A DNA stretch of 64,000 nucleotides, taken from Nocardioides sp. Root240. Its GTDB lineage: Bacteria; Actinomycetota; Actinomycetes; Propionibacteriales; Nocardioidaceae. The stretch lies in the NCBI RefSeq assembly GCF_001428825.1, contig NZ_LMIT01000016.1:146707-210706 (forward strand), given 5' to 3'. Made by a program: the position numbers and the translations under genes. Of the stretch, positions 10,011 to 18,948 are shown piece by piece (positions within the stretch are counted from its first letter, which is position 1; each line of letters opens with the position of its first letter). The notes below the pieces were generated by a model. It saw only the letters and a program-made list of their open reading frames with translations. It searched no databases and was not told the origin of the DNA.

Positions 10011-10094
10011 CGCCCGACCGGCCGTCGTGCCGGAGTGGGCTCGCGCCGGCGACCGCGCCGCCCAGCCTACCGACAGGGCCGGGGGTCGGTCAGC

Positions 10095-10126
10095 TACCGC
10101 GCGGCCGCCCCAGGAGCCCCCGCGAC
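10095..10126. repeat. Short interspersed repeat, copy 2
   Basis: Near-identical to 20-50 with two substitutions and one indel. It lies in the 213-base gap between two convergent genes, upstream of the terminator at 10177-10206. Confidence 0.5.
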
Positions 10127-10176
10127 AGGATCCCGAGCAGGACCCACCGAAGCGTCAGGAGAGCCGGGAAAAGCAC

Positions 10177-10206
10177 AGTGGGCCGGCCCTGTCGGGCCGG
10201 CCCACT
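10177..10206 (-). terminator. Rho-independent terminator of the sortase-fusion gene
   Basis: A 13-bp perfect stem (AGTGGGCCGGCCC and complement) with a four-base loop. On the minus strand it is followed by GTGCTTTTCC. It lies 17 bases past the stop codon of the minus-strand gene ending at 10224. Confidence 0.85.
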
Positions 10207-10223
10207 GCTTGTCCCCAGCTAGG

Positions 10224-13200
10224 TCACTTCACCGGGACGGCGGTCACCACCAGGTTGTTGCGGTAGTGGAACCGGCCGTTGCGGTAGGTCACCTTGTCGG
10301 CACAGGTCACCAGGACCAGGCGGTGCGCCCCGTTGGTGCGGAACACGCTCGCCGGGATCCCCTTGCTCCGGGCGTACTTCGCCCGGGCGGTGATCCGGTA
10401 CTCGAACCGCTTGCCGTTCTTGGTGATCGTCACGACCTGACCCACCTTGGCGTTCCGGAGCTTCCAGAAGGCCATCGGAGTGTCGTGGTGGTCGGAGACG
10501 TGGCCGGCGATGATCGACGTACCGATCAGGTCACCGACCGCGGCGGAGCGGTTCAGCCAGCCGACCGTGCCGGAGCCGTCCGGGATCACCATCTGGCGCT
10601 TCCGGTTGACCCCGACGGTACGGACGCCCGCCTTGATGCCGACCTTCGCGATGCGCAGCTGCGTGGTCGGAGCAGCCAGGCGTGCCCAGAACGGCGGCCT
10701 GACGCCGGTCTCGATGGCGATCGGACCGTACGCCGCGCGCTGCACCGTGGTCGTCTCGTTGGCGAGACCACAGCCGTGGCTGACCACGCCGCCGGTGACG
10801 TCCTCGACCTTGACGACCCAGGTGTAGACACCGGGGCGGCCCACCTTGATGCCGGGCGAGGTCGTCGTGCCGTTGCCGACCGTGAAGCTCACCTTGCCGA
10901 CCAGGCGGGCCGGGGTGCACATCGCGGACGAGCGGGTCGCGGTCGGACCGTAGAGGTACGCCGTGGCCTGGGCGGGCGCGTCGAGGCCCGTGACCGTCAC
11001 CTTGTCGGTGAGCGGGCGGGCGACCGGCGTACCGGACGCGGTGACCGCGAGCTGCACGGTCTTCGCGGCCTGCGTGACCAGGGCCGGCGGGGCGTAGGCG
11101 AAGCCGAAGTCCAGCGTCGCGTCGACGTCGCCGTCCTCGTCGAGGTCGCCCGACTCGGCCTGCCACGTCGAGGAGTCGTTCGCTGCGTTGCCCTGACCGG
11201 TGACGGTCGGGACGTACTGGGCGAGCGCATCCTTGGTGGACGTGGCATTGCGGTCGATCTTCACCGTGTAGTGCTGGCCCGAGGGCAGTGCCGGCAGGTC
11301 GTCGAACGAGTAGCCGCCGTCGGCGTCCGTGGTCCGCGGACCGACGGGGTTGCCGAAGACGTCCGTGACCGGGTTGCCGTCGGGGCCGACGATCCGGAGC
11401 ACGACACCCTGGATGCCGGGCTCGCCCGCGTCCTGCGTGCCGTCCTTGTCCTTGTCGACCCAGACGAGGTCACCCACGGAGACCGAGGGCTCGACGAAGC
11501 CGAAGTCGAGCGACACGTCCTCGTCGCCGTCCTCGGTGAGGTCACCGGACGTGGCCTGCCACGTCGAGGAGTCCGTCGCCGAGGTGCCCTGTCCGGTCTG
11601 CGTCGGCAGCAGGTCGCCGAGTGCGGCCACCGTCGCCGGTGCGTCGCGGTCGATCTTCACCGTGTAGTGCTGACCGGCCGGCAGGACCGGCAGCTCGTCG
11701 AACAGGTAGTGACCGTTCGCGTCCGTGGTGACCGGGCCGACCACGTTGCCGTGGATGTCGGTGACCGGGTCGCCATCGGGGCCGACGACCGTGAGCACGA
11801 CGCCCTCGATGCCGTCCTCATTGCCGTCCTGGACACCGTCGCGGTCCTTGTCGAGCCACACGTAGTCGCCCACCGAGACCTCGGCCGGCACGAAGCCGAA
11901 GTCGAGCGTCATGTCGCGGTCCTGCGGGTCCGTGAGCGAACGTGCGTCCGCCCGGCCGTTCGACGAGTCGTCGGCGCCGGTGCCCTGACCGGTCTGGGTC
12001 GGCTTGTACGCCGCCAGTGCCGGCTGGTCGTTGTCGATCGTGACCGCGTAGTGCTCGCCGTCCTCGTTCACCGGCAGGTCGGTGAAGCTGTAGAAGCCGT
12101 TGGCGTCCGTGGTCGTCGTACCGATCTCCACGCCGTCGTTGTCGAGCAGCTTCACGGTGACACCGGGGATGCCGGGCTCGCCGGCGTCCTGGACGCCGTC
12201 GCCGTCGAGGTCGACCCACACGAAGTCGCCCACCGAGACCGGCTTCGGGGCGAACCCGAAGTCGAGGGTGAGGTCCTTCGCACCGGCCGTGGTGAGCTCG
12301 GCCGAGTTCGCCGTCCACAGCGACGAGTCGAGGGCGGGGTCGCCGCCCTGGCCCGCAGCGGTGGGGTTGTACGGCGCGAGCGCGTCGATGGTCGACGGCG
12401 CGGTCTGGTCGATCGTGACCGTGTAGTACTCGCCTGCGGCGAGCACGGGGAGGCCGTCGAACAGGAAGTGGCCGTTCGCGTCCGTGGTCACCGGACCGAC
12501 CGGGTTGCCGCTGACGTCGGTCACCGGGTCGCCGTTCTGGTCCGTCAGCTTCACGACGACGCCCTGCAGGCCAGGCTCGCCCGCCTCCTTGATGCCGTCG
12601 CCGTCGCTGTCGATCCAGACGAGGTTGCCGACCGACACCGACGCGGGCTTGAAGCCGAAGTCGATGGTGTGGTCGTTCTCGCCCCGGTTGCCCGTGGTGA
12701 TCTCCGCCTGCGGGTAGCCGGCGACCTTGGTGCCGTCGGAGTCGAGGCGGTCCTGGTCGTCGCCGGTGCCCTCGTCCGCGCCGGTGAGGCCGACCGCGGC
12801 GAGCGGGCCGCTGCCGGTGTGGTCCTCGGGCTTGTCGAGTCGCACCACGTAGTCGGTGTTGAAGTCGACGTCGTCGTCCACCGAGTCGAAGTAGTACTCG
12901 CCACGGCTGTTGGTCACGGTGGTCGCGACCAGCGTGGTGCCGTCAGCGGCGTACAGGTTCACGGTGACGCCGGCGATGCCGTCCTCACCCGCGTCCTGGA
13001 TGCCGTCGGCGTCGGCGTCGTTCCACACCCGGTTGCCGATCTGGATCGGCGCGAAGTCGCAGATGACCTCCATGTCGGCCATGCCCTGGCCCTTGCCGAA
13101 GCCGTCGGAGCCGGTGAGCCGGTTGCCGGCGTTGCCCGCGTTGTGCGGGACCTCGTCGGGGTCGCCGGTCGCGCCGTCGCCGACCGTGTCCAGCGACTGC

Positions 13201-14927
13201 CCGGTGCCGCGCGACATCGTCGCGTAGCCCTGGGTGAAGATGCCGAACGGGTCCATGACGTTGCTGGCGATACCGCGCTCGCCGCGGCTGAACGCGATGC
13301 CGCCGAAGCTGGCCTCGGCGTGGATGGTGCCGTCGCCGTTGAAGAACTCGCCGGCGAACTGACCCGCGGGCACCGCGGCGACGCCGCAGGCACCGTTGAG
13401 GTCGAGCACGAACATGCCGTCCGAACCGGGCGTCGGGCAGGCCTTGTTCGTGTCACCACTGACGTTGTAGTTGACCACGCCGACGGTCGAGCCGCCGGTG
13501 CCGGTGGTGTCGGCGAAGTAGGTCGAGTTCACGCCGAGCATCTGGTCACCCGTGCGGTCGCGGAAGCCGACGATGAGGTCGCCGTTGTTCTCGACGACGA
13601 TGTCGGTCATCCACGCCTGCGGGTCCGGGATCTGGCCGGACTTGTTGGCGCACGCGATGCCCACGTCGCTCCACGGCCGGTACGTCGTGTTGTCCCGTCC
13701 GACGCAGCCCGAGCCGCCGTTGAGCTCACGCCGGGTGGTCAGGGTCTGGTCCATGACCTTCTCCACAGGCGCGTAGGTGTCCGCGTCGTAGGTCAGGACG
13801 ATCGCCTTCATGTCGGCGGGGTTCTGGCTCGACTCGGCCGAGCAGACGCCACCGACGTAGAGGACGCCCTTGCGCTCGCCGAGGGCAGCCGGACGCCAGT
13901 CGGACGCCGCCGCGCAACCGGGGTTGGCGGAGAGGTCGACGACGTGGGTCGGCGCACCGGCGGTGGCGTCGGAGGCGTCGTACACGTAGAGCTTGCGGTC
14001 GAACAGGTTGATCACCTGCAGGTCGTCGCCGTCCTCGCTGACGTCGAGGTCGCCGAGCGACTCCTTGCCGACGGCGGGCGCGAAGTTCCAGTCCAGGCGA
14101 CCGCCCGGCAGGGTGTCGTTGGTGTGGGCCCGGGTGCCGGTGTTCGGCACGGTGCCCCACAGCGTGGCGCCGCCACCGCTGGCGTTCGTCACGTAGATCG
14201 CGCCGGAGCCGCCGGGGCCGTAGGCGCTGCCGCGCTTGGCGAAGGCGCCGGCGAAGACCCGCTTGTCCTGCTTGCGGTAGCCGATGCCGTAGAGCGCACC
14301 CGTCGCGGCCTTGTTCGACAGCACGGCCTTGCCGGTGTCGACGCCCTCGCCCCGGAACGGCGCGGTCACGAGGGTGTCCCCGTTGGCGTTGTCGGCGAGG
14401 CCGCCGGCTCCGTTGAACATCGGCGGCTGGCAGGCCGTGACGATCAGCGGGTTCGACTGGCAGTAGTCGCTCGAGTCCCAGAAGGCCGTCGTCATCTCGA
14501 CGGTCTGGTTGGCCGCCACGGTGACGAACTCCTCGTTCGGCGAGAGCCACTTCGCGGCCGGGGTGTCCGCCGAGGCGTCACTCTCGTGGGCCGGTGCCGG
14601 CTCGAGGGTCGCCGGGTCGGGGTTGTGGGCCACGAACCGGTAGCTGCCCGGAGGGCCTTCGAAGGTCAGCAGACCGTCGGCGCCCGTCTGCAGCGTCTGC
14701 GTCACGCCGGCCTCGTTGGTGACGTCGACATCGACGCCCACCAGGCCGGGCTCGATGAATGCGTCGTCCCAGCCCCCGTCGCCGTTGTAGTCCTGGACCA
14801 CGCGCACCTTCACCGTGCCGTCGCCCGGGGCCGCCTGTGCGACCGGTACTGGTGTGCCCACCAGTGCCAGCCCGGCTGCTCCCGTCGTCAGCGCGAGGAA
14901 GGCGCCTGTACGCCTACCACCCAACAT
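10224..14927 (-). CDS. Giant secreted SdrD B-repeat protein fused to a C-terminal sortase domain
   Basis: The protein has about 1,567 residues. A signal peptide ends near AQA. One degenerate SdrD-type repeat follows, then a long extracellular region of about 550 residues (possibly propeller-like). Five SdrD B repeats come next, each beginning VSVGDxVWxD and carrying a DxDxDG calcium loop. A linker leads to a class E/F-like sortase domain, with the apparent triad H1476 (IIAGHVSD), C1542 (LVLVTCADK) and R1556 (YRNNLV). No LPXTG signal or C-terminal membrane helix is seen. The ATG at 14927 follows GGAGAAGGA; starts at 14948 and 14960 lack such a site. It is probably a secreted surface protein with its own transpeptidase, possibly controlled by the regulators just upstream. 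Confidence 0.88.
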   Translation of the reverse strand: MLGGRRTGAFLALTTGAAGLALVGTPVPVAQAAPGDGTVKVRVVQDYNGDGGWDDAFIEPGLVGVDVDVTNEAGVTQTLQTGADGLLTFEGPPGSYRFVAHNPDPATLEPAPAHESDASADTPAAKWLSPNEEFVTVAANQTVEMTTAFWDSSDYCQSNPLIVTACQPPMFNGAGGLADNANGDTLVTAPFRGEGVDTGKAVLSNKAATGALYGIGYRKQDKRVFAGAFAKRGSAYGPGGSGAIYVTNASGGGATLWGTVPNTGTRAHTNDTLPGGRLDWNFAPAVGKESLGDLDVSEDGDDLQVINLFDRKLYVYDASDATAGAPTHVVDLSANPGCAAASDWRPAALGERKGVLYVGGVCSAESSQNPADMKAIVLTYDADTYAPVEKVMDQTLTTRRELNGGSGCVGRDNTTYRPWSDVGIACANKSGQIPDPQAWMTDIVVENNGDLIVGFRDRTGDQMLGVNSTYFADTTGTGGSTVGVVNYNVSGDTNKACPTPGSDGMFVLDLNGACGVAAVPAGQFAGEFFNGDGTIHAEASFGGIAFSRGERGIASNVMDPFGIFTQGYATMSRGTGQSLDTVGDGATGDPDEVPHNAGNAGNRLTGSDGFGKGQGMADMEVICDFAPIQIGNRVWNDADADGIQDAGEDGIAGVTVNLYAADGTTLVATTVTNSRGEYYFDSVDDDVDFNTDYVVRLDKPEDHTGSGPLAAVGLTGADEGTGDDQDRLDSDGTKVAGYPQAEITTGNRGENDHTIDFGFKPASVSVGNLVWIDSDGDGIKEAGEPGLQGVVVKLTDQNGDPVTDVSGNPVGPVTTDANGHFLFDGLPVLAAGEYYTVTIDQTAPSTIDALAPYNPTAAGQGGDPALDSSLWTANSAELTTAGAKDLTLDFGFAPKPVSVGDFVWVDLDGDGVQDAGEPGIPGVTVKLLDNDGVEIGTTTTDANGFYSFTDLPVNEDGEHYAVTIDNDQPALAAYKPTQTGQGTGADDSSNGRADARSLTDPQDRDMTLDFGFVPAEVSVGDYVWLDKDRDGVQDGNEDGIEGVVLTVVGPDGDPVTDIHGNVVGPVTTDANGHYLFDELPVLPAGQHYTVKIDRDAPATVAALGDLLPTQTGQGTSATDSSTWQATSGDLTEDGDEDVSLDFGFVEPSVSVGDLVWVDKDKDGTQDAGEPGIQGVVLRIVGPDGNPVTDVFGNPVGPRTTDADGGYSFDDLPALPSGQHYTVKIDRNATSTKDALAQYVPTVTGQGNAANDSSTWQAESGDLDEDGDVDATLDFGFAYAPPALVTQAAKTVQLAVTASGTPVARPLTDKVTVTGLDAPAQATAYLYGPTATRSSAMCTPARLVGKVSFTVGNGTTTSPGIKVGRPGVYTWVVKVEDVTGGVVSHGCGLANETTTVQRAAYGPIAIETGVRPPFWARLAAPTTQLRIAKVGIKAGVRTVGVNRKRQMVIPDGSGTVGWLNRSAAVGDLIGTSIIAGHVSDHHDTPMAFWKLRNAKVGQVVTITKNGKRFEYRITARAKYARSKGIPASVFRTNGAHRLVLVTCADKVTYRNGRFHYRNNLVVTAVPVK
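11090..13050 (-). repeat. Five tandem SdrD B-type repeat units within the sortase-fusion gene
   Basis: Five units of roughly 360-400 bases each encode a conserved head (V/I-x-V/I-GN/D-x-VWxD-x-D-x-DG-x-x-D/E-AGE) and a tail with the D-x-TLDFGF motif. Approximate unit boundaries are 13,050, 12,640, 12,240, 11,880 and 11,480. The last two units are the most alike, consistent with recent duplication. Confidence 0.8.
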
Positions 14928-15048
14928 TCGAATCCTTCTCCCACTCATCGCACGTGCCACGTCCGTGATCGACGGACGGGTCTTCCCTGCGCGACCGTAG
15001 GGCCGTTCTCAGGCAGGACTCAGGGGTTTGGTGGACACGGCCACGAAA

Positions 15049-15068
15049 TGACCCCCGGGTGGGGGTCA
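15049..15068. repeat. 20-bp inverted repeat, copy 1
   Basis: TGACCCCC-GGGT-GGGGGTCA preceded by AAA. It lies 53 bases past the end of the response regulator gene at 15121 and 122 bases upstream of the sortase-fusion start. It could be a short terminator (TTTC follows on minus) or an operator. A matching element is at 15899-15918. Confidence 0.55.
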
Positions 15069-15120
15069 CTGTCGGATCCGATGGATCGAACGGGCCCGAA
15101 CGATTGACCTCCGGGAGGGG

Positions 15121-15834
15121 TCAGGGGCGCGACGGCGGGTCGAGGTAACCGTCCTGCAGGGCGAGGTGGTTCAGGTCCAGCTTGGTCCGGGCCGGCCGCC
15201 CGGCAGCGGCGTACTTCGCCTTCACCCGGCTCAGGTACTTCTTCGCCGTGTCCTTCTTCACCCCCAGCGCCTCCGCCACCGCCTCCATCGTGGAGCCCGA
15301 CGCGTAGAGCACCAGCGCCCGCTCCTCCTGGTCGCTCAGCTGGGGCCGGTCGCTCCCCGCCGCGAGGATCCGCGCGAGCTCCGGCGACGTCCAGTGACCG
15401 TGGCCGAGGACGGTCCAGATCGCGGCGACCACGTCCTCCTCGGGGTCGCGCTTGCCGACCACACCGGCGACTCCCGCACGCATCACCTTGCGCACCAGGT
15501 CCGGTGAGGACATCGCGGACAGGACCAGGACCCGGATGCCCGACCGGACCAGGCGTCGTACCTGCTCGGGGTCGACGCTGGGGCCACGGTCGACCATGAG
15601 GTCGAGCAGAACGAGGTGGGGCCGCCTGCCGTCGCCGACGGTCTCGAGCCAGCTGAGGAGGTCCGGCAGCGTCTCCCCGCTCCAGACGACGTCGAGTCCG
15701 GACTGGGCACCGACCAGGTCCTCGGCGCGCCGGCGTTGGAGCAGGTGGTCCTCGACGAGGGCGACTCGCCACCGGAACGCGCGGGAGCGCGCACCGTCAG
15801 GTGCGTCCGTTGCTCGCCGACCTCGCCCCACCAT
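15121..15834 (-). CDS. LuxR-type response regulator (paralogue 1)
   Basis: A 237-residue two-domain regulator. The receiver domain has acidic residues E28 and D29, the phosphoacceptor D78 (VLLDLM), and a SAMSS-type switch segment followed by GKRD. The C-terminal LuxR/GerE-like helix-turn-helix begins LSDQEERALVLYASG and includes VAEALGVKKDTAKKYLSRVKAKY. It is closely similar along its length to the regulator at 15950-16636, so the pair arose by tandem duplication. It is read toward the sortase-fusion gene and is a good candidate to control it. TACGTT lies ten bases before the ATG. Confidence 0.88.
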   Translation of the reverse strand: MVGRGRRATDAPDGARSRAFRWRVALVEDHLLQRRRAEDLVGAQSGLDVVWSGETLPDLLSWLETVGDGRRPHLVLLDLMVDRGPSVDPEQVRRLVRSGIRVLVLSAMSSPDLVRKVMRAGVAGVVGKRDPEEDVVAAIWTVLGHGHWTSPELARILAAGSDRPQLSDQEERALVLYASGSTMEAVAEALGVKKDTAKKYLSRVKAKYAAAGRPARTKLDLNHLALQDGYLDPPSRP

Positions 15835-15949: not shown

Positions 15950-16636
15950 TCAGCGGCTCGGCGGATCGAGGTAGCCGTCCTGCTGTGCGACCGCGTTCAG
16001 GTCGAGCTTGGTGCTCGCGGGGCGCCCGGCCGCGGCGTACTTGGCCTTCACCCGGCTCAGGTACTTCTTCGCGGTGTCCTTCTTGACGCCGAGCGCCTCG
16101 GCGACCGCGTCGAGGGTGAGCCCGGACGCGTAGAGCACCAGCGCCCGCTCCTCCTGGTCGCTCAGCTGCGGCCGGTCGCTGTCACCGGCGATCACGCTGG
16201 CGAGCTCAGGCGTGAGCCACTGCCCGCGCCCGATCACGGTCCACATCGCCGCGACGATGTCCTCCTCGGAGTCGCGCTTGCCCGCGATGCCGCCGATGCC
16301 GGCGCGGAGGATCTTGCGGACCAGCTCGGGCGAGGCCATCGCGGACAGCACGAGGACCTTGATGCCGGACCTGGTCAACGCCCGGACCACGTCCGGGTTC
16401 ACGCTCGGCCCGCGCTCGACCATCAGGTCGAGGACCAGCAGGTGCGGGCGCAGCTGGTCGGGCGCCGTACCGACCCAGCCGAGGAAGTCGGGCAGGGTGT
16501 CACCGCTCCACACCACCTGCAGCCCGGCCTGCGCCGTGATGAGCTCCTCCGTGCGCTTGCGCTGCATCATGTGGTCCTCGACGATCGCCACGCGCCACTC
16601 GTAGCGGCGGGCTCCCCGCTCGGCAGGACTGCTCAC
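15950..16636 (-). CDS. LuxR-type response regulator (paralogue 2)
   Basis: This 228-residue protein has the same architecture as its neighbour: receiver with E20, D21 and phosphoacceptor D70 (LVLDLM), then a LuxR-type DNA-binding domain. Its GTG start overlaps the stop of the histidine kinase gene (GTGA-type), so the two are translationally coupled and this is the likely direct partner of that kinase. Compared with paralogue 1 the DNA-recognition stretch VKKDTAKKYLSRVKAKYAAAGR is identical, so both may bind the same sites. Confidence 0.9.
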   Translation of the reverse strand: MSSPAERGARRYEWRVAIVEDHMMQRKRTEELITAQAGLQVVWSGDTLPDFLGWVGTAPDQLRPHLLVLDLMVERGPSVNPDVVRALTRSGIKVLVLSAMASPELVRKILRAGIGGIAGKRDSEEDIVAAMWTVIGRGQWLTPELASVIAGDSDRPQLSDQEERALVLYASGLTLDAVAEALGVKKDTAKKYLSRVKAKYAAAGRPASTKLDLNAVAQQDGYLDPPSR

Positions 16637-18948
16637 GATCGATCTCCTTCGGACGACGGAACCACCACTTCGACCAGGTCCTGCGGACCCAGGTTGCGCA
16701 CCGACAGCTCGACGCCGTCGGGCAGGTGCCAGCCCTGCAGGGCCGACGACAGCCGCGGCCCCGGGCCGACGAGCGTGAACCGGAGCGCGTCCGGGCCGGG
16801 GAAGAGCGTGCTGGTCAGCTGCTCCCCCGCGGGAACGGCGGCCACCGCCGTGAGCAACAGCTCACCCAGCGCCGGCGCCACCGCGGCGTCGACGTCGACC
16901 CCGCCCGAGCGCACCGCCAGCCGGGTCTGCGCCGTGCGTGCGTCGGCGAGTCCGCGAGCGAACCACTCACCCATCCGCACCAGGTCGGGGTTGAGCTGGG
17001 TGAGCTGGCGCAGGTAGGTCTCCTCCTCCGCGCACGCGCGTTGCAGCTGCTCGTCCCTGGGATCGGCCTCGGCCCGCGCGACCCGGTCCAGGATCGCGAC
17101 CGACTCGCCCAACCCGGCCGCGGCCCACCGGCGCCGAGCCCGGCTCGCGGCATCGCGGGCGTCGGCCTCGGTGCGCAGCCGCGCGGCCGCCTCCTGGTCG
17201 GTCACCACCTGCCGGCCGACTGTCGTGACCAGGCGCTGGAAGCCGGCCCAGCCGATCGCAAGGCCGAGGCAGGCGGTACCGGCCACCAGCACGGAGGCGG
17301 CGGCACTCGTGTCCGACCGTGCCGTCACCGCGGCCACGGCAAGCACCGTGGCGAGCACCGACGCACCGGTCCAGCCGGCGCTCTTGCGCCACCGCCGGTC
17401 GCCGAGCAGGACCAGGAGCGGCCCCGTCGGGCAGATGGCCTGCCACAGGACGATGTCGTGCCGGCCGAAGTCGACGGCCGCGGCGGACAGCACGAAGGCG
17501 AGCGACGCGCCCACGGCGAGCACGACAGGGAGCAGCACCGCACGCACCCGGCCGGGCCCGTTGGTCTGCCACGCGATCGCGCAGACGAGAGCGACGATGG
17601 CGACCATCGGGTACTCCTCGGTGGGGCGCCCACGATGGTTGGTGACCGCCAACCAGACGCCGATCACCACCACCCCGACGGCGAACAGGCCGCTCGCACG
17701 GCGCTGGAGCCCGTCGACGACCGCCTGCAGCGCGTCCTCCCGATCTGGCACGACGCCCGGTCCGTCCGGCACGGCGCGACCGGTCCAGACAAGGGTCGCC
17801 CGGGTGCCCTCGCCGGGGGCCGTCACCAGGCTCACCTCGACATCGGTGCCCCTGAACCGGCCGAGCACCGACTCCGCGAGTCCCCGGCCGGTCGGGACGT
17901 GGCCGTCGAACCCGACACCGTCGTCACTGACGGTGACGACGAGGCCCCCGTCGCGGACGGCCACATCGACGACGACCTCGTCGGCGCCGGAGTGCTTCGC
18001 GGCATTGCGCACCAGCTCGGTGGTCGCGCGGGCGAGTGCCTGGAGCACCTCGGGCGGCAGGAGGGCCTCGCGGCGGGCGAGCTCCTCGTCAGGCACCCCG
18101 CGGTGCGCGACGCGGATGCCGTCGACGTGCAGGCCGCTGCGTATCCCGTTGCCGTCCATCGGCAGCCGGGCGTCGCCGGTGAGCGCCTCGACGGTGGCGA
18201 CGTCGCGTGCGCACCGGGCCCGCACGCTCTTCAGGTCGGCGACACCCGCGCCACCGTTGGCGAGTGCGCCGAGGGTGTTGATGACGGTGTCGTGCAGGAC
18301 CCGGGCGTCCTCGGCGGCGCGACGGCTCGCCGCCTGACGTACCTCGACCGCGTGCTCCTGCGTCTCAGCCAGCGCCCGCTCCTCGTCGGCACGGCGAGCG
18401 AAGTCGAGCAGGACCAGGTAACCGATGCGGGTGCCGACGAGAATGGCAAGACCTGTCGTCGCGACCGACGTGGGCAGCACGCTCCCGGAATCGGGCCAGG
18501 TCAGCACCATCGCGGTCGGCACCACGACCGCGACGGCCAGCGGAAGCAGCAGGGCGGCGCGACCGCGCATCGCGAAGCTCGGGAGTGCCGCCGCCAAGTT
18601 GGCCAGCCAGCAGGCGGCGAGCAGCAGCGGCTGGTCGAGCGAGGTGACCCACGCCCAGTCGGCCACGAAGGCGACGTACGCCAGCACCACGACCACCCAC
18701 GACGGGAGTCGGTCGGCGGCGGCCACGAACGAGATCGCCAGCAACCCGAGGTGGATGACGAGGAGAGTGGTGTGCCCGGCGGGCGAGAGCGGTTCGATGA
18801 GGACCGTCGGCACCATGACCAGCTGCCACAACCCCATGCTCCGCAGCACCACGCGCCGGATCGACGCGACCACGGCCGCCGTGGTCGAACCCTCCTCGTC
18901 GCCGAACAGGTCGCCGAGAAACTGCCGGCGGACGCGTGCCCAGTCCAC
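16633..18948 (-). CDS. Membrane histidine kinase with a second degenerate kinase-like half
   Basis: A 771-residue protein. The first half has about five membrane helices (residues 35-185), a coiled linker, a HisKA_3-type phosphoacceptor H219 (RVLHDTVINTL), an N-box ELVRNAAKHS at 311-320 and the ATP lid motif DDGVGFD at 342-348. After about residue 410 a second set of membrane helices is followed by a coiled helix and a domain with no phosphoacceptor histidine, N-box or G-box. This looks like a duplicated kinase module that lost catalysis and may now sense or regulate. It is co-translated with response regulator 2. The signal is unknown. Confidence 0.87.
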   Translation of the reverse strand: MDWARVRRQFLGDLFGDEEGSTTAAVVASIRRVVLRSMGLWQLVMVPTVLIEPLSPAGHTTLLVIHLGLLAISFVAAADRLPSWVVVVLAYVAFVADWAWVTSLDQPLLLAACWLANLAAALPSFAMRGRAALLLPLAVAVVVPTAMVLTWPDSGSVLPTSVATTGLAILVGTRIGYLVLLDFARRADEERALAETQEHAVEVRQAASRRAAEDARVLHDTVINTLGALANGGAGVADLKSVRARCARDVATVEALTGDARLPMDGNGIRSGLHVDGIRVAHRGVPDEELARREALLPPEVLQALARATTELVRNAAKHSGADEVVVDVAVRDGGLVVTVSDDGVGFDGHVPTGRGLAESVLGRFRGTDVEVSLVTAPGEGTRATLVWTGRAVPDGPGVVPDREDALQAVVDGLQRRASGLFAVGVVVIGVWLAVTNHRGRPTEEYPMVAIVALVCAIAWQTNGPGRVRAVLLPVVLAVGASLAFVLSAAAVDFGRHDIVLWQAICPTGPLLVLLGDRRWRKSAGWTGASVLATVLAVAAVTARSDTSAAASVLVAGTACLGLAIGWAGFQRLVTTVGRQVVTDQEAAARLRTEADARDAASRARRRWAAAGLGESVAILDRVARAEADPRDEQLQRACAEEETYLRQLTQLNPDLVRMGEWFARGLADARTAQTRLAVRSGGVDVDAAVAPALGELLLTAVAAVPAGEQLTSTLFPGPDALRFTLVGPGPRLSSALQGWHLPDGVELSVRNLGPQDLVEVVVPSSEGDRS

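Follow-up and report, generated by a model that had tools for sequence, protein, structure and literature searches.

A sortase domain at the end of secreted surface proteins in Nocardioides: a candidate natural self-sorting module

Known sortases are separate enzymes that act on other proteins. In the locus described here, a sortase forms the end of a protein of the kind that usually serves as substrate. The window, by which we mean the whole 64,000-nucleotide stretch that was analyzed, is from Nocardioides sp. Root240 (contig 16, positions 146707 to 210706, of a 5.13-Mb genome). The gene in question encodes a secreted protein of 1567 residues with five SdrD_B repeats and a C-terminal sortase domain. 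We consider it probable that this is a natural self-sorting surface protein, in which the sortase cuts its own Thr–Gly bond and passes the remainder of the protein (the passenger) to an acceptor, probably peptidoglycan. A substrate with its own sortase and its own motif would, if this is true, be a new way of anchoring surface proteins.

The reading frame occupies 10224–14960 on the minus strand and has 1578 open codons counted from a GTG. A Shine–Dalgarno-like sequence, GGGAGAAGG, is found six bases 5′ of the ATG at 14927 that gives 1567 residues. Residues are numbered from this ATG; numbering from the GTG at 14960 is 11 higher. The protein is laid out as follows.

10227..14927, minus strand: coding sequence of the 1567-residue secreted protein with C-terminal sortase (stop codon 10224–10226; alternative GTG start 14960)
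14829..14927, minus strand: Sec-type signal peptide, cleavable (AQA-A site, hydrophobic core), from direct reading of the sequence with a crude hydropathy and AxA scan
13044..14828, minus strand: N-terminal passenger domain, without a Pfam match
11100..13043, minus strand: five SdrD_B repeats (12651–13043, 12252–12635, 11892–12236, 11496–11876, and 11100–11480), from profile matches
10725..11087, minus strand: immunoglobulin (Ig)-like "YLYGP..CGL.ETT" domain, N-terminal to the sortase, from homologue alignment and AlphaFold2
10704..10715, minus strand: junction motif I1405-E1406-T1407-G1408, with proposed cleavage at T1407/G1408, from homologue junctions, predicted docking, and split loci
10662..10703, minus strand: variable linker from motif to sortase, from comparison of junctions across homologues
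10227..10661, minus strand: class F-like sortase domain reaching the C-terminus, from Pfam/NCBIfam, AlphaFold2, and structure matches
10500..10502, minus strand: catalytic His H1476, from conservation in homologues
10368..10370, minus strand: R1520, from conservation in homologues
10302..10304, minus strand: catalytic Cys C1542, from conservation in homologues
10254..10256, minus strand: N1558, an Asn near the place of the class F catalytic Arg, from conservation and the class F literature

A prediction made earlier from the sequence alone (the original prediction) had proposed a sortase fused to the end of a secreted SdrD-repeat protein, and domain searches and structure prediction bear this out. 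The PF04203 (Sortase) profile matched with 50.2 bits against a cut-off of 26.6, over residues 1436–1577 in GTG numbering. A profile search of the genome gave the expected five SdrD_B stretches in the gene (Pfam match 4.3e-96), and the anticipated signal peptide was found as a hydrophobic core with an AQA-A site. The repeats also match the prealbumin-like SpaA model. Only the repeats resemble Sdr proteins: the full-length NCBIfam models for MSCRAMM SdrC/SdrD scored 212 bits (cut-off 1700) and 199 bits (cut-off 2500). The hydropathy scan detected no C-terminal hydrophobic segment or basic tail in the window protein, so the layout of an LPXTG sorting signal is absent. The proposal that the protein has neither sorting signal nor C-terminal anchor thus holds for the anchor; it fails for the signal, because a sorting-type motif is present internally, upstream of the sortase.

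To characterize the sortase, we modeled the Ig domain and sortase (the last 287 residues) with AlphaFold2 using 32 sequences. The best model had a predicted local distance difference test score (pLDDT) of 92.7 and a predicted template modeling score (pTM) of 0.88. Three of the five models were above pLDDT 91 and the other two were at 74.1 and 71.4. All 50 solved structures listed as matches were sortases in both comparisons made (best Z 17.7, root mean square deviation 2.7, 150 residues), and a PDB sequence search gave weak sortase matches (best E 0.051). The best sortase-class NCBIfam model was class F (NF033748), with 69.3 bits against a cut-off of 166; because the score is below this cut-off, we term the domain class F-like and not a member of the class. 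Class F enzymes stand alone in the membrane, whereas this sortase is the C-terminal domain of a 1567-residue protein with a cleavable-type signal peptide.

We compared catalytic residues across 50 non-redundant fused homologues (less than 80% identical) and 31 other class F-like sortases, the latter including the split locus L100 described below. H1476 is present in 49 of 50 fused homologues, as is C1542, and all 31 others have both. Together with the predicted fold and the structure matches, this agrees with the earlier proposal of a sortase fold with these two residues at the end of the protein. That proposal also named R1556 as the third catalytic residue, and here it did not hold. R1556 is kept in just 12/50 fused homologues and was rejected as the catalytic Arg on this basis. 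In class F sortases the catalytic Arg is reported to be replaced by Asn (PMC6998099), and N1558, two residues after R1556, is Asn in 33/50 fused and 30/31 other homologues. By our own alignment, N1558 seems to be the class F Asn-for-Arg position, and the third catalytic residue is probably not R1556. Position 1520 is always Arg in the fused homologues (R1520, 50/50) and is Lys in 28/31 of the others.

The fusion recurs across the genus. Using a profile of the module (Ig domain, motif, and sortase) built from 27 sequences, with copies counted at E ≤ 1e-40, we found at least 98 copies in at least 51 of 215 genomes of the genus, three of them in the source genome. The genus, class, and Ig-protein counts are lower bounds, with only some candidates per genome scored. 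Counted frames are 402–2428 residues long (median 1101) and none has an internal stop. Because 98 genus copies are in such open frames, the fusion is not an assembly artifact, and a frameshift or assembly join was rejected as its origin. In the fused frames that were read, the sortase match stops 0–10 residues short of the stop codon. Among the matches listed from 393 genomes of the class, the full-length module occurred only in genus and family members (10 rows, 6 genomes), and the front of the module was absent from the other matches listed. Janibacter indicus also carries one copy (L075), and the type strain Pimelobacter simplex ATCC 6946 has fused genes as well. A homologue of the window protein's N-terminal domain in N. 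carbamazepini (L068), 84% identical, is also fused.

The passengers are very different from one another. Eleven fused proteins scanned besides that of the window carry an NHL propeller with Ig/cadherin repeats, DUF11/DUF7507 stalks (two of these also match a lectin model below threshold), DUF5979 together with a thioester domain, or no known domain. We therefore rejected the idea that the sortase fusion is specific to SdrD proteins; that an SdrD-repeat protein carries the sortase is true of the window and is not a limit on the family. An N-terminal hydrophobic segment with an AxA-like site was found in 45/49 fused frames by a crude hydropathy scan. Over the last 330 residues of 49 fused frames, one hydrophobic segment was flagged, about 300 residues before the end of L098.

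Relatives of the passengers carry ordinary sorting signals where the fused proteins carry the module. L063 has an N-terminal domain 32% identical to that of the window protein and an SdrD_B repeat, and ends LAATG-hydrophobic-KRR. The SdrD_B protein L042 (G014) ends LPGTG-hydrophobic-RRR and the Ig protein L267 ends LPNTG-hydrophobic-RRR. SdrD_B matches were present in 24 of 149 family genomes surveyed: 18 were examined, two held fused proteins (G000 and G239), and four were left out. Sixteen SdrD_B frames matched the window repeats by BLAST, and by eye ten end in an LPXTG-like signal, two run off the stretch, and four have none. Because passenger relatives end in LPXTG/LAXTG-type signals, the module occupies the position of their sorting signal. 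We also looked at 11 loci, chosen among the matches listed, with Ig proteins that have no in-frame sortase. One is a split pair (L266), one has the ordinary signal noted above (L267), and nine have neither and end at or near the Ig domain. These nine are more distant matches, and they show that an Ig domain of this kind can occur without the rest of the module. In the source genome, canonical sorting signals include five LPNTGG. The Pfam search of that genome lists six sortases, which is a lower bound since it missed the window copy that scores 50 bits by hmmscan.

Between Ig domain and sortase the fused proteins have a segment of 26 to 118 residues that is variable except for the consensus P-x-[V/I]-[D/N/E/P]-[T/G/S/A]-G-[F/Y/G]. 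All 49 parsed non-redundant junctions contain its core, [V/I/F]-x-[T/G/S/A]-G, as compared to 9.3 on average and 18 at most for shuffled linkers. The fiftieth junction, L074, is outside the parsed set and reads IETGY. The Gly is invariant across the 49 parsed junctions, and the residue before it (P1) is Thr in 26, Gly in 15 (nearly one clade), Ala in 4, and Ser in 4. The window junction reads I-E-T-G, and we propose cleavage at its T|G as at a sortase recognition motif. Four junctions (L095, L096, L058, and L133) read VPTG. The same four residues form the core of the [E/Q]VPTG motif in pilins of group A Streptococcus, where the pilus sortase cuts EVPTG between Thr and Gly (PMC3019223).

Two other origins for the motif were rejected. 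It occurs upstream of the domain in just 3/36 other class F-like sortases (a set that includes split L100 and the second sortase of L085) and is thus not a generic N-terminal feature of them. It is found in 1/19 Ig–Ig junctions and is predicted to dock without the Ig domain, so it is not part of the Ig fold. P1 seemed to covary with residue 1558 (32 Thr/Ser/Ala with Asn, 15 Gly with Tyr/Phe/Ser, and two Thr/Ala with Tyr), which we set aside because it is mostly one clade in the tree.

Four loci (L227, L100, L099, and L266) encode passenger and sortase in two neighboring genes, with the motif on the passenger and a separate export signal on the sortase. The L227 passenger (78% identity, PF11999) ends ...GSVATGGRTQ and its stop is overlapped by the GTG start of the sortase (GTGA), which has its own signal peptide. 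Several relatives of this ice-binding passenger end in LPKTG/LPKTS-type signals. The other three loci are from Nocardioidaceae. In L100 the passenger ends ...YVPAGGSRRGDLR, the genes overlap by ATGA, and the sortase has a lipoprotein-type signal. L099 has a GTGA overlap. The L266 passenger reads ...DIPTGP with about 16 more residues, and 12 nt after its stop comes the sortase ATG with GGAG ahead of it. A frameshift separating the domains in relatives had been named as a result that would count against the fusion. Separated forms do exist, but they are gene pairs (ATGA/GTGA overlaps or a 12-nt gap). Because the sortase has a separate export signal and the motif is left on the passenger, they support the reading of the fusion given here. 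The earlier suggestions that the enzyme is carried by the usual kind of substrate and might attach itself are supported by these pairs, by the exchange with ordinary signals, and by the conserved sorting-type motif.

A second fusion comes from actinobacteria of a different order, with small genomes. In L226 (= L222) and L228, ...GFVATG... joins the passenger to a class F sortase; L222 has a PF11999 ice-binding domain as passenger and passes the NF033748 cut-off with 174.2 bits. It was one of eight large class F frames of other families that were examined among those listed. The other seven read as ordinary stand-alone sortases in long frames and were rejected; one of these, L219, runs into Ns after the sortase. 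Of the 88 sortase domains placed in a tree, 52 were fused, 32 stand-alone (three of these rows are one gene), and 4 split. L226, L228, and L227 formed a supported group (100/95) separate from the fusions of Nocardioidaceae. No fewer than two changes in fused state are forced, and the best tree has five. The main division between these two sets is unstarred at 91/96, and L266 sits on a long branch. On these sequence comparisons, the ice-binding fusion is independent of the Nocardioidaceae fusions, giving at least two origins.

The motif could instead be an inhibitory lid like that of class C pilin sortases, with a tethered sortase acting in trans and the passenger merely positioning the enzyme at the surface. 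Structure prediction bears on this. We modeled L096 with AlphaFold2 after removing its Ig domain and keeping its natural linker, which is about 100 residues long. The ten residues at the free N-terminus, among them the motif as far as its Thr, had a mean pLDDT of 85, linker blocks had 36–81, and the barrel had mostly 92–98. When compared to solved sortases, 19 of the 50 chains listed aligned from residues 1–3, all of them class C or Corynebacterium diphtheriae SrtA. Thirty (other class A, D, and E chains and two others) aligned from the barrel at 107–113, and SrtE1 5cuw aligned from residue 7. The motif is thus predicted to dock where pilin sortases hold their pseudo-substrate lid. Class C lids overlap an LPAT peptide bound in the groove (PMC3493515). 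If the alignments are ungapped, 4g1h (78 at residue 1; lid D84–F86) and 4g1j (86 at residue 3; lid D90–Y92) put V8 at Pro and T10–G11 at the scissile bond. The window model with 5k9a (117 to 74) gives the same register, using what we take to be the lid residues of C. diphtheriae SrtA.

The lid explanation is consistent with this placement at the class C lid site and with the residues around the motif Gly, often Phe/Tyr after it and Asp/Glu/Asn before it, which resemble the DPF/DPW/DPY lid (PMC3493515). We regard it as unlikely. In each of the four split loci found, the passenger gene and not the sortase gene carries the motif; a substrate would have it there, and a lid would not. Few of the other class F-like sortases (3/36) have it. 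A small P1 and an invariant Gly also differ from DPX, and the window junction has no DPX. With one sortase per passenger, and passenger relatives that have ordinary sorting signals, a role in trans is uncalled for.

We return to self-sorting. Here we infer the cutting in cis, the T|G bond, the nucleophile, and the attachment to the wall, and the steps would be as follows. After Sec export of the precursor and removal of the signal peptide, the sortase domain, which is last to emerge, would fold at the membrane and its own upstream [V/I]-x-T-G motif would enter the active-site groove. C1542 would attack the T1407–G1408 bond to give a thioester between passenger and enzyme, freeing Gly1408. An amine, most likely in the cross-bridge of a peptidoglycan precursor, would then resolve the thioester. 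This would leave the passenger, an adhesin-like domain on an SdrD_B stalk, covalently on the wall and shed the 160-residue sortase part, a one-shot enzyme. The module would stand in for a sorting signal (motif and membrane-retaining tail) and also for a separate sortase. It is about an even call whether these proteins form a class of one-shot self-sorting proteins that arose at least twice in Actinomycetota, each time by a passenger fusing to its adjacent, translationally coupled, dedicated sortase, which would give class F-like sortases a role.

Several observations weigh against self-sorting. Having no tail to hold it in the membrane, the protein would be lost if the reaction were slow. P1 is Thr in only 26/49 junctions, which is unusual for a sortase substrate, and the Ig–Ig linkers of L076 (QPDTGAGG) and L077 (QSGTGSGG) contain a Gly-rich TG, outside the motif pattern. 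In L099 the motif of the passenger is followed by a hydrophobic/basic tail, and this passenger could for this reason also serve another sortase. In the window model the motif block has a pLDDT of only 74 (linker 58), below that of the L096 model. The motif register is inferred to within about one residue, from first aligned residues (range end points only). The lid positions that we assume for 2w1j and 2w1k would move it one residue either way. Two class C structures do not behave alike: Streptococcus suis 3re9 aligns from the barrel and a group B Streptococcus SrtC1 (3o0p) aligns from the motif, and PMC3493515 describes structures from both species as open. AlphaFold2 may also be recalling the class C lid and not a substrate. 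The fused paralogue L057 (G029:C21; last 140 residues) keeps the motif and has lost both His and Cys. As a natural dead sortase, L057 is also a useful control.

Another alternative is that the fused sortase joins passengers into pilus-like polymers, using Lys side chains of the SdrD_B or Ig domains as nucleophile. The nearest folds include pilin polymerases, the SdrD_B repeats match the SpaA model, and VPTG at four junctions is the pilin motif core (PMC3019223). This seems quite unlikely because passenger folds differ with no evident common nucleophile, no pilin-type genes were found among the window neighbors scanned, and the same passengers elsewhere end in wall-sorting signals. It is also very unlikely that the sortase hydrolyzes the motif to release the passenger to the medium. 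Sortases do hydrolyze their substrate when no amine is present, and cutting here would leave no anchor. However, wall-sorting signals on passenger relatives make attachment look like the usual need, and for release secretion of the passenger without a sortase would suffice. That the domain is no longer an enzyme and has a structural or wall-binding role is highly improbable: the state of L057, the unconserved Arg position, and a PF04203 cut-off passed by 8/11 other fused proteins (L057 is just under at 26.1; L046 and L053 are not listed), so that some have diverged, are set against His and Cys kept in 49/50, an Arg-to-Asn change reported for class F generally (PMC6998099), and a motif and split pairs that a structural role does not explain.

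The component parts were already known, and their natural arrangement was not recognized in the literature searched. With stand-alone class F sortases such as Propionibacterium acnes SrtF, the domain shares the fold, His and Cys, Asn at the usual Arg position, and NF033748 as best model. It differs in being on the end of a large secreted passenger with no membrane anchor of its own, in having HVSD for HVDS, and in carrying an invariant Arg in place of Lys at 1520. Wall-anchored Sdr/SdrD_B and other LPXTG proteins have the same order of signal peptide, N-terminal domain, repeat stalk, and anchoring element at the end, except that Ig domain, motif, and sortase here replace the C-terminal sorting signal with its hydrophobic/basic tail. 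Class C pilin sortases are the top structural matches and, as predicted here, have a segment N-terminal to the barrel in the active-site groove. By contrast, the window family has [V/I]-x-[T/G/S/A]-G and not DPX, the motif travels with the passenger in split loci, and there is no C-terminal membrane segment.

Engineered fusions offer parallels in design. STEPL fusions (protein-LPETG-sortase), which have the same order as the window protein, self-cleave with an amine nucleophile (PMC11561820), and BISOP fusions, with the mirror layout of sortase-LPETG-protein, also self-cleave (PMC2901362). Because such protein-LPETG-sortase fusions cut themselves, the chemistry of self-cleavage is plausible. 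Both join a sortase to its substrate through the cutting motif; they are man-made from SrtA and LPETG, whereas the window protein is natural and has a divergent sortase branch with its own motif. No natural fusion of a sortase to a surface protein was recognized in our search of the open-access literature, with subscription journals outside its scope. Quadruple srtF deletion in Actinoplanes is reported to cause no phenotypic change, and the physiological role of class F is given as unknown (PMC13251363). In one survey, nearly half of fibrillar-adhesin-like proteins had no recognized anchor (PMC8286594). Self-sorting, if true, would help with both the role of class F and these anchorless proteins, and the modules would be ready-made self-ligating cassettes with a non-LPXTG motif.

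The sortase-fusion gene is next to genes for a putative signaling system.

15121..15834, minus strand: response regulator, the gene just 5′ of the sortase-fusion gene (Response_reg 28.3 bits, just under the cut-off of 30.2)
15950..16636, minus strand: second, related response regulator (Response_reg 28.7 bits, just under the same cut-off of 30.2)
16633..18948, minus strand: histidine kinase (HATPase_c)

Homologues of the regulator and/or kinase are also near fused genes in L073, L076, L077, L078, L079, L083, and L085, where L076 and L085 are neighboring loci on one contig, as are L078 and L083. This suggests that a dedicated two-component system may control some of the fused genes. No match to a −35/−10 promoter or to a terminator was found near the window gene. 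A second small sortase-like protein of a different type (AHTW / VVCSGK) is encoded close to the fused genes at L073:8923–9645 and L077:15989–16771. Antisense to the window gene, on the plus strand at 10035–15107, is a frame of 1690 codons that most likely results from codon usage at high G+C. Frames also adjoin other fused genes at L037:1011–3608 (866 residues) and L040:858–3566 (903 residues), and their ends look LuxR-like by eye.

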